A DNA stretch of 5,771 nucleotides from Labilithrix sp. (GTDB lineage Bacteria > Myxococcota > Polyangia > Polyangiales > Polyangiaceae): NCBI GenBank assembly GCA_028287035.1, contig JAQBQL010000067.1:1-5771 (forward strand), in the 5' to 3' direction. The position numbers and the translations under genes were made by a program. The notes under the pieces were generated by a model. That model searched no databases, was not told the origin of the DNA, and worked only from the letters and a program-made list of their open reading frames with translations. Shown here piece after piece: positions 96-4,669 of the stretch (its first letter is position 1; each line of letters begins with the position of its first letter).

Positions 96-1439
96 TCACT
101 TCTCGTTCGGCTCGCGCGTGTCCGCGGGGTGCTCGTCGACGGCCTCGGGCATGCCGTCCTCGTCGGCGGCAGGCTCCTTGGCCGAAGCGCGCTCGAGCGC
201 CTCGCTCTTGCCGCTCTTCGGCGGCCACGCGCTCACGTAGCGCGGAGTCTCGCCGGGGCCGCTCGCGTCGATCCACGCGACGTGACCCTTGCCCGGGTCG
301 CGCACGTCGAGATGCACGAACGAGCTGTTCGGGTAGTAGCCGCAGCCGGTGTCGGTGAGGGTCTTGCAGAACGCGACGACGTCCTCGTTCTTCGTCCCCT
401 CGATGCGGAAGTCCACGGCGCGACCGGTCGCGTGCATGCTGCCGACCGACGTCGGACGCACGCCGGAGACGATGGACATCTTGATGGCGGCGCCGGGCTT
501 GCCGAAGTGATCGGCGAGCGCCTGGATGCGCTGCGCGAGCCGCTCGTCGACGCGGTGCACGCCGTGCGCGAGCTCCTCGCCCTTCTTCTTCGCGAGCTCG
601 GCGAGCGACGCGACGGGGCGGGCGGCGCTGCCGGGCCGGATGGCGATCGAGAGGTGCTCGACCGCGAGAGGCGCGACGGTGCCGTCGCACCGGGTGAGAG
701 CGAACGTGTCGATCTCCGGTCCCCGGATGACCTCGATGGGGTCCTTCTCACAGCCGCGCGAGGTCTCGCTCACGCGGCGAGGCTTGCCGGCCTCGTGCTC
801 GGACCGGGCCTTGGCGTCCTTCGCCTCGCCCTCGTCCTTGCCTTCCTTGCCGCCACTCTTGCCGCGGATCCGCGCGACGAGATCGGCGAAGTCCTCGTCG
901 CGCTTGGGTTGGCCACCTTCGTCGGAGTCGGCTTCCTTCTTCTCGGTCGCCTTGCGGGCGCCCTTCTCGCTGCCGTTCTTGCCCGCCTTCACGGAGACCT
1001 TCGACGCGTCGGGGAGCTTCGGGAGCTCGGCCTTCTCCGTCTTCTCGGACTTCGTCTCGGCCTTGTGCGAGCTGGTCTTCGTGTGGGTCTTCGTCGTGAG
1101 CGAAGCCGGGACCAGGTCCTTGTCGGCCTTGGGCTCCTTGTGGCCGGGGCCGCTCACGTCCGCGTTGTGCGCGTGGTGCAGCACGACGGGCTTGAGGACG
1201 ACCTTGGAGGTCGAGGAGTGGTGGACGCGCGTGATCGTCTCCTCCTTCTCTTCCTTCTCGTTCTTGACGACCTTCTCGTCACGGGAAGTCGACTTCTCCG
1301 TCTTGGAGCTCGTCTTCTTGTGGTGCTTCTCCACCTTGGTGGAGGTCGGCTTGTGGGCCGCGCTCTCGGGCGCCGCGTACGCGGCGAAGGGCGCAATGGC
1401 GATCGCGAGAGCGATGATCGAAGAGACCACGGGCTTCAT
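96..1439 (-). CDS. exported peptidase M15/DUF882 (YcbK/MepK-like) murein hydrolase with Lys/Glu-rich linker
   Basis: A 447-aa protein. Residues 1-22 look like a Sec signal peptide (Lys, then a hydrophobic stretch ending FAAYA, no lipobox Cys). Residues about 25-220 are low complexity, rich in Lys, Glu, Ser, Thr and His. The catalytic domain lies at about 230-405. Its zinc motif SMHATGRAVDF supplies H336 and D343, and SFVHLDVR supplies H376, preceded by SGVRPT and GCGYYP. This is the pattern of DUF882/peptidase M15 proteins such as E. coli MepK, which cleave peptidoglycan peptide cross-links in the periplasm. Cysteines C230/C251 and C358/C366 could form disulfides in an exported protein. Residues 408-447 form a charged, probably disordered tail. 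The ATG at 1439 is preferred because of its good Shine-Dalgarno site and immediate signal peptide; the open frame continues upstream but only across the divergent gene. The linker is much longer than in MepK (about 180 aa in total, from memory). The exact bond cleaved is not known from sequence. Confidence 0.88.
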   Translation of the reverse strand: MKPVVSSIIALAIAIAPFAAYAAPESAAHKPTSTKVEKHHKKTSSKTEKSTSRDEKVVKNEKEEKEETITRVHHSSTSKVVLKPVVLHHAHNADVSGPGHKEPKADKDLVPASLTTKTHTKTSSHKAETKSEKTEKAELPKLPDASKVSVKAGKNGSEKGARKATEKKEADSDEGGQPKRDEDFADLVARIRGKSGGKEGKDEGEAKDAKARSEHEAGKPRRVSETSRGCEKDPIEVIRGPEIDTFALTRCDGTVAPLAVEHLSIAIRPGSAARPVASLAELAKKKGEELAHGVHRVDERLAQRIQALADHFGKPGAAIKMSIVSGVRPTSVGSMHATGRAVDFRIEGTKNEDVVAFCKTLTDTGCGYYPNSSFVHLDVRDPGKGHVAWIDASGPGETPRYVSAWPPKSGKSEALERASAKEPAADEDGMPEAVDEHPADTREPNEK

Positions 1440-1583: not shown

Positions 1584-1997
1584 ATGACGCCCGCCGAGTT
1601 CGAGCAAGAGTTCCGGAGCCTCGTCGAGGCGCACGAGCACGGGACCGGCAACGTGGGCTGCCTCGCCTGCGAGGGCTGCGAGCGGTGCAGCGAGTCCACG
1701 TTCCTCACCGATTGCACGAACGTGGCGCGCTCGAACTACTGCCGCGGCTGCGCCGACTGCACCGAGTGCTCGCACTGCGACTCGTGCACGGGCTGCCTCT
1801 CGTGCTCGCACTGCGAGCGGAGTGATCGCTGCGTGGCGAGCGCCTACCTCGTTCGCTGCGTCGGCCTGAGCGGCTGCACGTACTGCTTCGGCTGCGTGGG
1901 CCTCGTGAAGAAGGACTTCCACATCCTGAACGAGCCGTACGATCGGCAGACGTACTTCGACACCGTCGCCGAGCTCCGGCGCGGGCTGCGGATCTGA
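1584..1997 (+). CDS. cysteine-rich CxxC-repeat protein, function unknown
   Basis: A 137-aa protein with no signal peptide or membrane segment, so probably cytoplasmic. Residues 1-25 are ordinary and possibly helical. Residues 26-104 contain 19 cysteines, all spaced by multiples of three: runs at 26-35 and 53-77, singles at 44, 83 and 92, then 98, 101 and 104. In the same register the other positions are only Ser, Leu or Val (38, 41, 47, 50, 80, 86, 89, 95). The cysteine-free tail 105-137 contains DFHILNEPYDRQTYFDTV. There is no CxxCH, so it is not a c-type cytochrome. The run lacks the CxxCxxCxxxCP spacing of a bacterial ferredoxin. Metal or iron-sulfur binding, a disulfide-poor redox role or a structural repeat fold are all possible. 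The ATG at 1584 is chosen over an in-frame TTG at 1536, which would add 16 residues including one out-of-register Cys. No clear Shine-Dalgarno site precedes it. The stop lies two bases before the dtd start, suggesting an operon. Confidence 0.8.
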   Translation: MTPAEFEQEFRSLVEAHEHGTGNVGCLACEGCERCSESTFLTDCTNVARSNYCRGCADCTECSHCDSCTGCLSCSHCERSDRCVASAYLVRCVGLSGCTYCFGCVGLVKKDFHILNEPYDRQTYFDTVAELRRGLRI

Positions 1998-1999
1998 TC

Positions 2000-2449
2000 G
2001 TGCGCGCCGTCCTCCAGCGGGTCCGTTGGGCGAAGGTCGAGGTGGCGGGCGAGGTCACCGGCGCCATCGAGCGCGGTCTCCTCGTCTACCTCGGCGCGGG
2101 CCGCGGCGACGACGCGGCCGCGCGAGCCTGGCTGCTCGGGAAGATCCTCGGCCTCCGGATCTTCCCGAACGACGCGGGCAAGATGGACCGGAGCGTCGTC
2201 GACGTGGGCGGCGCGCTCCTCGTCGTCAGCCAGTTCACGCTCTACGCGGACGTGAGCAAGGGCCGCCGGCCGAGCTTCGAAGGCGCGATGCCTCCCGAGG
2301 ATGCGGAGGTCGCCTACGAGGCGTTCGTCGCGGACGCCCGCGCCGCCGGCATCACGGTGGCGACCGGGAAGTTTCGCGCGGACATGCAGGTGTCGAGTCA
2401 GAACGACGGACCCATCACGATCTGGCTCGACAGCGCGCGGGTTGGATAG
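2000..2449 (+). CDS. dtd: D-aminoacyl-tRNA deacylase (DTD)
   Basis: A 149-aa protein, close to the usual length of about 145 aa. DTD is a cytoplasmic homodimer that hydrolyses D-amino acids from mischarged tRNAs, and also glycine from tRNA-Ala, keeping D-residues out of translation. The protein opens MRAVLQRVRWAKVEV like the family. It carries the signature SQFTLYAD at 77-84 followed by SKGRRPSF, and the Gly-Pro motif NDGPITIW around G137-P138, which the partner subunit uses to exclude L-amino acids. The TGKFRADMQV segment is also typical. Near residue 62 the common 'GKMN' reads GKMD, a mild change. The start is GTG, two bases after the preceding stop, with no obvious Shine-Dalgarno site, so translational coupling to the cysteine-rich gene is likely. 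Identification is secure. Confidence 0.96.
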   Translation: MRAVLQRVRWAKVEVAGEVTGAIERGLLVYLGAGRGDDAAARAWLLGKILGLRIFPNDAGKMDRSVVDVGGALLVVSQFTLYADVSKGRRPSFEGAMPPEDAEVAYEAFVADARAAGITVATGKFRADMQVSSQNDGPITIWLDSARVG

Positions 2450-2458
2450 GCTTCGGTC

Positions 2459-2806
2459 GTGAGCGACGAGGAAGACACCGGCGATCCCGTGTTCGAGGCG
2501 CTGTGGTCACGCGTGCTCGAGGCGTGGGACGAGGACAAGCCGCACCAGGCGGTCCTCGGTCACGCGATCGCGAACGAGCAGCTTCCCACGCTCGCCGGTC
2601 GCTACCGCGCGCTCTTCGACGACGCCGAGAAGGGCGAGCGCGCGAGGAAGAAGATCGACGGCATCGTCATCGCCGCCACCCAGATGCTCATGTCGACGAA
2701 GACGCCGCCGCGCGAGAAGATCCCGTGGCAGTGGACCGCCAGCGTCGCGGCGGTGTTCGTGCTCGTCGTCGCCTTCCTCGCGTTCAAGGTCTTCCTCCGT
2801 CACTGA
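2459..2806 (+). CDS. small protein with single C-terminal membrane segment, function unknown
   Basis: A 115-aa protein I do not recognise. Residues 1-80 are soluble, acidic at the N-terminus and predicted mainly helical, with FEALWSRVLEAW, then HQAVLGHAIANEQLPTLAGRYRAL and a charged stretch. Similar His/Leu/Tyr-Arg patterned helical modules occur, as I recall, in uncharacterised deltaproteobacterial proteins. Residues about 92-112 are a hydrophobic helix (TASVAAVFVLVVAFLAF) with only a few residues after it, so the protein looks tail-anchored with its bulk in the cytoplasm. The GTG start lies nine bases after the dtd stop, and AGG eight bases upstream (2448-2450) is a plausible weak ribosome site, so it likely sits in one transcript with dtd. 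Its last seven bases overlap the end of the convergent pdxA gene. Codon use resembles its neighbours, which supports it being a real gene. Confidence 0.75.
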   Translation: MSDEEDTGDPVFEALWSRVLEAWDEDKPHQAVLGHAIANEQLPTLAGRYRALFDDAEKGERARKKIDGIVIAATQMLMSTKTPPREKIPWQWTASVAAVFVLVVAFLAFKVFLRH

Positions 2807-3931: not shown

Positions 3932-4669
3932 TCAGCGTACCGCCGCCTCGCGCCTCCGTGCGAGCGACTCGCCGCCGCCCGGCTCGCCTGGCGTGCGCAT
4001 CTTGTAGCCGGCGCCGCGGAGCGTCTCGAGCGGGAACGCGTCGCCGAGCTTCATGCGCAGCCGCCGCACGTGGATGTCCACGGTCCGCGCGCCGCCCTCG
4101 TAACGAGCGCCCCACACCCGGGCGAGGAGCGAGTCGCGCGAGAAGACGCGCCCGCGGTTCTGAGCGAGGAACGCGAGGAGGGCGAACTCCTTGGCGGTGA
4201 GCACGATGGATCGTCCGTCGACGAGGACCTCGTGGGCGGCACGGTCCACGACGAGTCGGCCCACCTTCGTCCGCTCCTCGGTCGCGAACTCGCTCCGTCG
4301 CCATTCGAGCTGGCGGATGCGGGCGTAGAGCTCGGAGGGCACGCACGGAAGCACGATGAAGTCGTCGAAGCCGCTCGCCGGATCGATCCGCGCGATCTGC
4401 CGCGGCGAGACGGCGACGATCGCGGGCACCTCCGTGAGCTCCGCGGTCTTGCGGACCGCCCGGAGCGCCGCCACCGCGAGGTCCGGTCGCTCGCCGGCCT
4501 CGATCACGATGGCGCGCGCCGTCGCGTCGCTCCCCTCGAAGAGCGCCGCGCCGTCGTCCCAGAGATCGAGCGTCCGGACCTCGGCGCCGAGCGTCCGCAG
4601 CAGGGTGGCGGACCCTTCTGGGCTCTCGAGATCGGGGCCGTGCCCGATGACGACGACGAAGGAGGGCAT
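3932..4669 (-). CDS. OmpR/PhoB-type response regulator with degenerate receiver domain
   Basis: A 245-aa protein with a receiver-like domain at about 1-125 and a winged-helix DNA-binding domain at about 134-228. The latter shows the family pattern LTAKEFALLAFLAQNRGRVF, the recognition segment TVDIHVRRLRMKLG and the closing RGAGYKM. The receiver keeps its overall shape (VVVIGHG start, AIVIEAG, PAIVAVSP, GFDDFIVLP, ELYARIRQL). It lacks the N-terminal acidic pair, has E57 where the phospho-acceptor Asp is expected, S88 at the Thr/Ser site and L107 in place of the conserved Lys before Pro. This suggests an atypical regulator that works without phosphorylation, or is constitutively on. No histidine kinase gene is adjacent, so it is an orphan here. 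Residues 229-245 form an Arg/Gly-rich tail. ATG at 4669 lies 22 bases after the tldD stop; no strong ribosome site is seen. Target genes are unknown. Confidence 0.88.
   Translation of the reverse strand: MPSFVVVIGHGPDLESPEGSATLLRTLGAEVRTLDLWDDGAALFEGSDATARAIVIEAGERPDLAVAALRAVRKTAELTEVPAIVAVSPRQIARIDPASGFDDFIVLPCVPSELYARIRQLEWRRSEFATEERTKVGRLVVDRAAHEVLVDGRSIVLTAKEFALLAFLAQNRGRVFSRDSLLARVWGARYEGGARTVDIHVRRLRMKLGDAFPLETLRGAGYKMRTPGEPGGGESLARRREAAVR

Follow-up and report, generated by a model that had tools for sequence, protein, structure and literature searches.

Background

The antifreeze (thermal hysteresis) protein of Tenebrio molitor (PDB 1ezg / 1l1i) is built of 12-residue coils in which every third residue points inward, Cys and Ser being among these inward residues; a disulfide joins C2 and C8 of each coil, and a Thr-Xaa-Thr (TxT) rank binds ice. 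Pentapeptide repeat proteins form a right-handed quadrilateral beta-helix from a five-residue repeat, with a coil of 20 residues. The Brevundimonas Knotted Solenoid is reported to be a triangular, knotted bacterial beta-solenoid whose coils begin with Phe and Cys (PMC13123833). Precursors of the heterocycloanthracin type carry Cys at every third residue, together with a leader peptide and a variable number of repeats (PMC2674419). These systems are compared here with a gene located in a 5,771-nucleotide (nt) stretch of Labilithrix sp. DNA (contig JAQBQL010000067.1), the whole of which is called the window. The gene (1584..1997, forward strand, ATG start, stop codon within these coordinates) encodes a protein of 137 amino acids (aa) in which all cysteines follow a single three-residue register.

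The Tenebrio protein was the top PDB match of the family, both by structure and by sequence profile, and both matches were weak. The two share the 12-residue coil (predicted in the present case) and inward residues at every third position with Cys and Ser among them. The TxT rank is replaced by a ladder of Phe, Tyr and His residues, and was found at only 2 of 3861 register sites of the main alignment (A2, described below), so that an antifreeze function was rejected. Pairing of cysteines at i,i+6, which corresponds to the C2-C8 disulfide, is disfavoured overall, although some pairs are conserved; the bacterial family also differs in its helical caps and in lacking exact repeats and a Pfam match. 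Convergence seems a likelier source of the resemblance than common descent. Pentapeptide repeat proteins are four-sided like the model proposed here, but membership in that class was rejected on account of the gap-free three-residue register, the period of 12 and the lack of a Pfam match. The Brevundimonas solenoid is like the present family in being a bacterial beta-solenoid with conserved neighbouring cysteines and no disulfides, and unlike it in its triangular, knotted shape; it was not among the matches of the structure and sequence searches made here. Neither repeat-number variation nor a leader peptide, as reported for the heterocycloanthracin group, was seen in the family.

The structural signature is real and unusually clean. 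Since the window protein has no match to Pfam or NCBIfam at E<=1, the family is considered as a new, uncharacterised protein family of Myxococcota with a predicted coil geometry already known from Tenebrio; it is described nowhere in the titles and abstract beginnings of the open-access literature among the matches listed. One Sorangium member is named «caib/baif family protein» in one source, after a CoA-transferase family, which looks like a misnomer. With moderate confidence in the combination, we propose that the protein folds as a beta-solenoid whose core is made mainly of reduced cysteines.

The cysteine register

The 19 cysteines of the window protein (residues 26, 29, 32, 35, 44, 53, 56, 59, 62, 65, 68, 71, 74, 77, 83, 92, 98, 101 and 104) all have residue numbers equal to 2 modulo 3. 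Residues 26-104 (1659..1895, forward strand; about 6.6 coils of 12 residues) contain 27 register positions, predicted to point inward and occupied by 19 Cys, 4 Ser, 3 Leu and 1 Val. A first interpretation made from the sequence alone (the sequence-only reading) had described a single register of 27 triplets, 19 starting with Cys and eight with Ser, Leu or Val only, and this description is confirmed to the residue. The exact chance that 19 cysteines randomly placed in 79 residues share one class is 4e-12 (0 of 200,000 shuffles), a figure that is optimistic because the region was picked after the pattern was seen. The question of coincidence is settled by the homologues, which keep the register.

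Homologues were retained at E<=0.001 from a single-sequence search (387 of 392 candidates) and a profile search (833 of 2050), and the best 120 of each were used, giving 155 distinct proteins. Among these 155 listed homologues, 2940 of the 2953 cysteines counted over whole proteins are in the main register. When 25 more homologues are included (180 listed), 3428 of the 3433 cysteines within the domain share one register, which answers the check that had been suggested, namely whether the register is kept where individual Cys positions vary. The five strays belong to P0162 (one), P0167 (one) and P0179 (three); the N-terminal part of the last is unlike the family and is perhaps the product of a frameshift.

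Three alignments were used. A2, made for folding, has 143 rows (the window protein, 127 of the 155 homologues and 15 proteins from the loci described below), and residues 26-104 hold 2692 cysteines in register and none out of it, with no gap over 79 columns; this count may flatter the family, as A2 leaves out 28 of the homologues, among them seven of the eight with any cysteine off the main register. The domain-only count found no stray within the domain of those eight proteins. In A3 (30 diverse rows) and A5 (41 rows, none in common with A2), the region is likewise gap-free, with 546 cysteines in register and none out, and 798 in and 2 out, respectively.

The register positions of A2 are occupied by Cys (69.7%), Ser (17.2%) and Leu (8.6%), followed by Val, Ala, Gly, Thr, Met and Ile, and by nothing else, while residues in the remaining two phases are polar or of mixed character. 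In the more distant alignments, Asn is also found at register positions (in 7 cells of A3 and 31 of A5), as is a single Gln. Such restricted exchange marks the register positions as a buried row. The summed volume of the 27 register residues is also steadier than in column-shuffled controls (standard deviation 44.5 versus 62.9; none of 500 controls as low), in line with what packing predicts.

The start residue lies at or close to the same position in most aligned homologues. In comparisons of the gene with four relatives (L001-L004) by the Nei-Gojobori method (NG86), the nonsynonymous rate (dN, 0.11-0.22) is below the synonymous rate (dS, 0.52-0.55), and the gene therefore looks to be under purifying selection.

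A twelve-residue period and the predicted solenoid

Once every four triplets, an aromatic residue or His directly precedes the register residue. These residues form a ladder (1701..1919, forward strand) composed of F40, Y52, H64, H76, Y88, Y100 and F112, with codon starts at 1701, 1737, 1773, 1809, 1845, 1881 and 1917. Each of the seven positions holds Phe, Tyr, Trp or His in 93-100% of the 143 A2 sequences; position 28, one ladder step further back, does so in 1%. In A5 the ladder is weaker at position 64 (23 Gln and 17 His in 41 rows) and slightly so at position 100 (4 Gln in 41). The autocorrelation of aromatic or His residues at non-register positions reaches 0.77 at lag 12, with 0.74 and 0.73 at lags 24 and 36, compared with -0.16 to -0.19 at the remaining multiples of three up to 39, and none of 5000 triplet shuffles reached the value at lag 12. 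As read from these sequences, the period of 12 stands independently of any structure prediction. A plain three-residue helix is unfit, because it predicts no longer period.

Structure was predicted with AlphaFold2 from A2 and, separately, from A5. The A2 model has a mean predicted local distance difference test score (pLDDT) of 73.9, with block means of 82-93 for residues 41-100, bridges at every third residue and strands near residues 41, 52, 64, 77, 87 and 99. The A5 model (mean pLDDT 80.1) has strand starts at 44, 56, 68, 80, 91 and 103, which, once the alignment offset of 4 is subtracted, coincide with ladder positions or differ from them by one residue. An N-terminal helix of residues 3-18 (1590..1637, forward strand), the predicted cap, and a C-terminal helix are present in both models. 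The ladder, the two models and the weak matches to the Tenebrio protein together make a narrow four-sided coil with 12 residues per turn, made of four triplets, likely.

The sequence-only reading had suggested a continuous three-residue periodic structure, for example a polyproline-II-like helix or a beta-solenoid, with one cysteine-lined face. A continuous periodic structure is supported by the gap-free register of the homologues and by the periodic solenoid predicted. As to the two folds offered, the beta-solenoid is favoured by the 12-residue ladder and by two models with strands about 12 residues apart, and the polyproline-II helix was set aside for the same ladder period and for the strands. 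The comparison that had been proposed between a periodic solenoid and independent zinc fingers came out twice as a solenoid. The single cysteine-lined face did not survive, as a period of 12 would have the register residues pointing inward from four sides and lining the whole core.

State of the cysteines and alternative explanations

Cysteine pairs at i,i+6, the spacing across the core, number 1574 in A2 where independence predicts 1634.5 (z -7.5), and the mean weighted Cys correlation at this lag is -0.17 over 12 column pairs. Pairs at i,i+9 are above independence (z 5.3) and those at lag 21 in the register columns are below it (z -4.1); neither deviation has a structural account in the solenoid reading. 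In A3, one Cys alone is left in 11 of 30 rows for the pair 29/35, 8 of 30 for 53/59 and 10 of 30 for 77/83, and in A5 the pair 77/83 has a single Cys in 32 of 41 rows. Neither an ordered metal array nor a ladder of paired thiols along the whole protein is supported, since register sites can equally be taken by Ser, Leu, Val, Ala or Gly and i,i+6 pairs are depleted overall, even if some are conserved. The core is probably composed mostly of reduced, free thiols used as packing.

Several observations weigh against a solenoid with such a core. The pLDDT is low at the ends of the A2 model (50-56 for residues 21-40, and 50-61 when residues 111-137 are included), and the five AlphaFold2 models are widely spread, from 49.7 to 73.9 with A2 and from 52.0 to 80.1 with A5. 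AlphaFold2 is also described as inventing solenoids for perfect-repeat sequences (PMC11795689); compared with the false solenoids of that text, the present family is diverged and has no perfect repeats, and the register positions of residues 26-104 in A2 are free of charged residues. Finally, five i,i+6 pairs are Cys at both positions in 119-138 of the 143 A2 rows, and five in 31-39 of the 41 A5 rows.

These conserved pairs, and a predicted coil geometry equal to that of the antifreeze protein with its C2-C8 disulfides, are what a Tenebrio-like solenoid with cross-core i,i+6 disulfides, whether permanent or, in a redox switch, formed upon oxidation, would have in its favour. The overall depletion of such pairs argues against it, as do the frequent persistence of one Cys after loss of its partner in distant members (29/35, 53/59 and 77/83 in A3, 77/83 in A5), the odd number of cysteines (19) and a presumably reducing cytosol, no signal peptide having been seen by eye in the window protein; the Brevundimonas solenoids likewise have close cysteines without disulfides (PMC13123833). 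Disulfides are accordingly regarded as improbable. Binding of metal (Zn or Fe) by the C-terminal coil of the same fold, with the remaining cysteines as packing, is somewhat less so, and is rated as unlikely. It would involve the signature CxxCFGCVGLxxKDFHILNxPYxR, which together with helix 124-134 of the AlphaFold2 model spans 1875..1994 (forward strand) and offers C98, C101, C104 and H113, with N116, as a candidate site. All four of C98, C101, C104 and His or Cys at 113 are found in 130 of the 143 A2 rows, 27 of the 30 A3 rows and 38 of the 41 A5 rows; C104 never varies in any of the alignments, nor does C101 in A3 or A5. Position 113 is His in 132 and Cys in 5 rows of A2, and Cys in 28 and His in 12 rows of A5, a swap typical of metal ligands, and the low pLDDT at 111-137 could come from an absent ligand. 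Some A2 rows nevertheless have Tyr113 (six), Leu101 (four), Ser101 (two) or Ser98 (five), a structural end cap would equally conserve the last coil, and the AlphaFold2 models hold no metal. From the sequences, a metal seems plausible at this end and nowhere else.

A series of separate zinc fingers, or a store of metal in the manner of metallothioneins, would account for the high cysteine content and for C26, C29, C32 and C35 being Cys in 134, 140, 136 and 122 of the 143 A2 rows. This explanation is very improbable: the window protein has no Pfam zinc-finger match, most register cysteines exchange with Ser, Leu, Val or Ala, positions 26 and 32 are both Cys in 11 of 30 A3 rows and in 1 of 41 A5 rows, and both the 12-residue ladder and the solenoid predicted twice are at odds with it. 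Still harder to credit is a modified-peptide precursor whose Cys-Xaa-Xaa units would be converted to thiazoles, although such repeats are described in the heterocycloanthracin group. That group varies by insertions and deletions of Cys-Xaa-Xaa (PMC2674419), as opposed to no gap in 143 rows here, and Leu and Val at register sites, the 12-residue ladder and the conserved end are unfit for a precursor. No cyclodehydratase-type modification family was found among the Pfam-scanned neighbours, the genomes not having been searched for such enzymes; peptides of this type are reported to be encoded far from their own modification enzymes (PMC2674419).

Proposed model

The protein would be a small four-sided beta-solenoid of about seven coils of 12 residues, capped by helices at both ends. 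Each coil would consist of four sides of three residues whose middle residue points inward, which would impose the strict register, and the narrow interior would admit only small or slim side chains, mainly reduced Cys with Ser, Leu, Val, Ala and Gly as alternatives, so that Cys would serve as core packing. On one side, each coil would form a short beta strand, and the residues facing outward from these strands would build a continuous Phe/Tyr/His ladder. The probable working surfaces are this flat face and the strongly conserved C-terminal end (CFGCVGL, FHILN).

Function is the weak part of this reading. In a presumably cytosolic location, the solenoid may be a stable scaffold or adaptor to which a partner protein binds at the ladder face or the end, a role that we put forward tentatively and with some doubt. 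A more speculative extension is quite improbable: the family would have arrived independently at the minimal beta-solenoid with 12-residue coils seen in insect antifreeze proteins and would maintain it in a reducing cell by a thiol column (about nineteen free thiols). This column or the end site might then serve as a redox- or soft-metal-sensing rod, whose rigidity would change on pairing of thiols or binding of metal and would so control the partner on the aromatic ladder.

Genomic context and distribution

The gene is followed on the same strand, 2 nt past its stop, by dtd, encoding a D-aminoacyl-tRNA deacylase (2000..2449; Pfam PF02580 with E 7e-54, TIGR00256 above cut-off), and then by a gene for a 115-aa protein of unknown family (2459..2806), without Pfam match and with a hydrophobic C-terminal stretch that by eye is a possible tail anchor. 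On the minus strand are found an M15-type peptidase as divergent neighbour (96..1439; PF05951 with E 2e-9, PF08291 with E 2.6e-8), pdxA (beyond 2806), a response regulator (3932-4669) and tldD (truncated where the window ends). The response regulator has a Trans_reg_C domain in Pfam, in which its receiver domain was not matched (N-terminal half GlnR_1st, below cut-off only); its receiver is possibly atypical. A minus-strand frame of 608 aa (96-1922) crosses the cysteine gene into the peptidase and is probably an artefact of GC-rich DNA, with 1439 as the more likely peptidase start.

The family was found at 31 loci of a species-level genome collection, using search words derived from the window, by which distant groups could be missed. 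Of these, 29 are assigned to Myxococcota groups, one to «Deltaproteobacteria» (L028) and one to «bacterium» (L027), and phylum-wide genome samples suggest that the last two also lie within the same phylum. Among named genomes, the nearest loci belong to a Myxococcales metagenome-assembled genome (MAG; L001) and to Labilithrix MAGs (L002, L003); their cysteine proteins are 80-82% identical to that of the window, with which these loci also share several neighbours. The dtd gene lies downstream in 25 of the 31 loci, with 0-63 nt between matches (8 nt in L018, 14 nt in L020), and the gene for the 115-aa protein in 21. The latter adjoins the cysteine gene in L026, L029, L030 and L060, where dtd was not found in the stretches examined; an OmpA protein is encoded further downstream in L030 and L060. 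A Pfam scan of 20 proteins (19 chosen neighbours of distant members and one viral-contig protein) matched nine of the 19 neighbours: DapB (L028), P5C reductase (L047), Smr (L050, L058), MoCF_biosynth (L054, L057) and OmpA (L025, L030, L060). Because distant members have different neighbours, a tie to tRNA proofreading through dtd was not drawn. Members of a Nannocystaceae-type group have a long low-complexity tail.

Of 282 genomes sampled from the phylum of a Sorangium genome (G001), at least 71 have a match at E<=0.001, the number being a lower bound as no more than 14 candidates were scored per genome. At least 65 of the 71 have a match of near full length, one such copy each; of the other six matches, one is truncated (G072) and five are weak. 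Searched with the A3 profile, a second sample of 188 genomes gave 63 matches, of which 44 are near full length, one is truncated and 18 are weak; the two samples overlap and their counts are not additive.

Similar registers were seen elsewhere. PHROG 15341, a group of phage proteins of unknown function with a Cys-Xaa-Xaa register, matches the window protein (E 3.9e-5), a match probably driven by the Cys pattern, as well as proteins of two viral contigs, L064 (E 7e-17) and L066 (E 8.9e-12). Viral contigs L064 (4785-5291), L065, L066 (4902-5318), L067 and L068 encode proteins of near-unbroken CxxCxx repeats, which by eye have no C-terminal signature of the myxobacterial family and represent a further, possibly independent, use of the register. 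Low-complexity frames of GCxGC repeats in a Minicystis genome (L063, 2662-3246) and in L062 (2727-3026) gave weak profile matches; these frames may not belong to the family but represent simple-sequence DNA or precursors of peptides.

Significance

If the predicted fold is true, the family would provide a natural, intracellular and very narrow four-sided beta-solenoid, capped, without exact repeats and apparently without obligatory disulfides. It would reveal under which packing rules coils of 12 residues are possible in a reducing cell, and would offer protein designers a soluble scaffold. It would also mean that an all-Cys register can mark core packing and not a metal site, which would correct the annotation of Cys-rich proteins.
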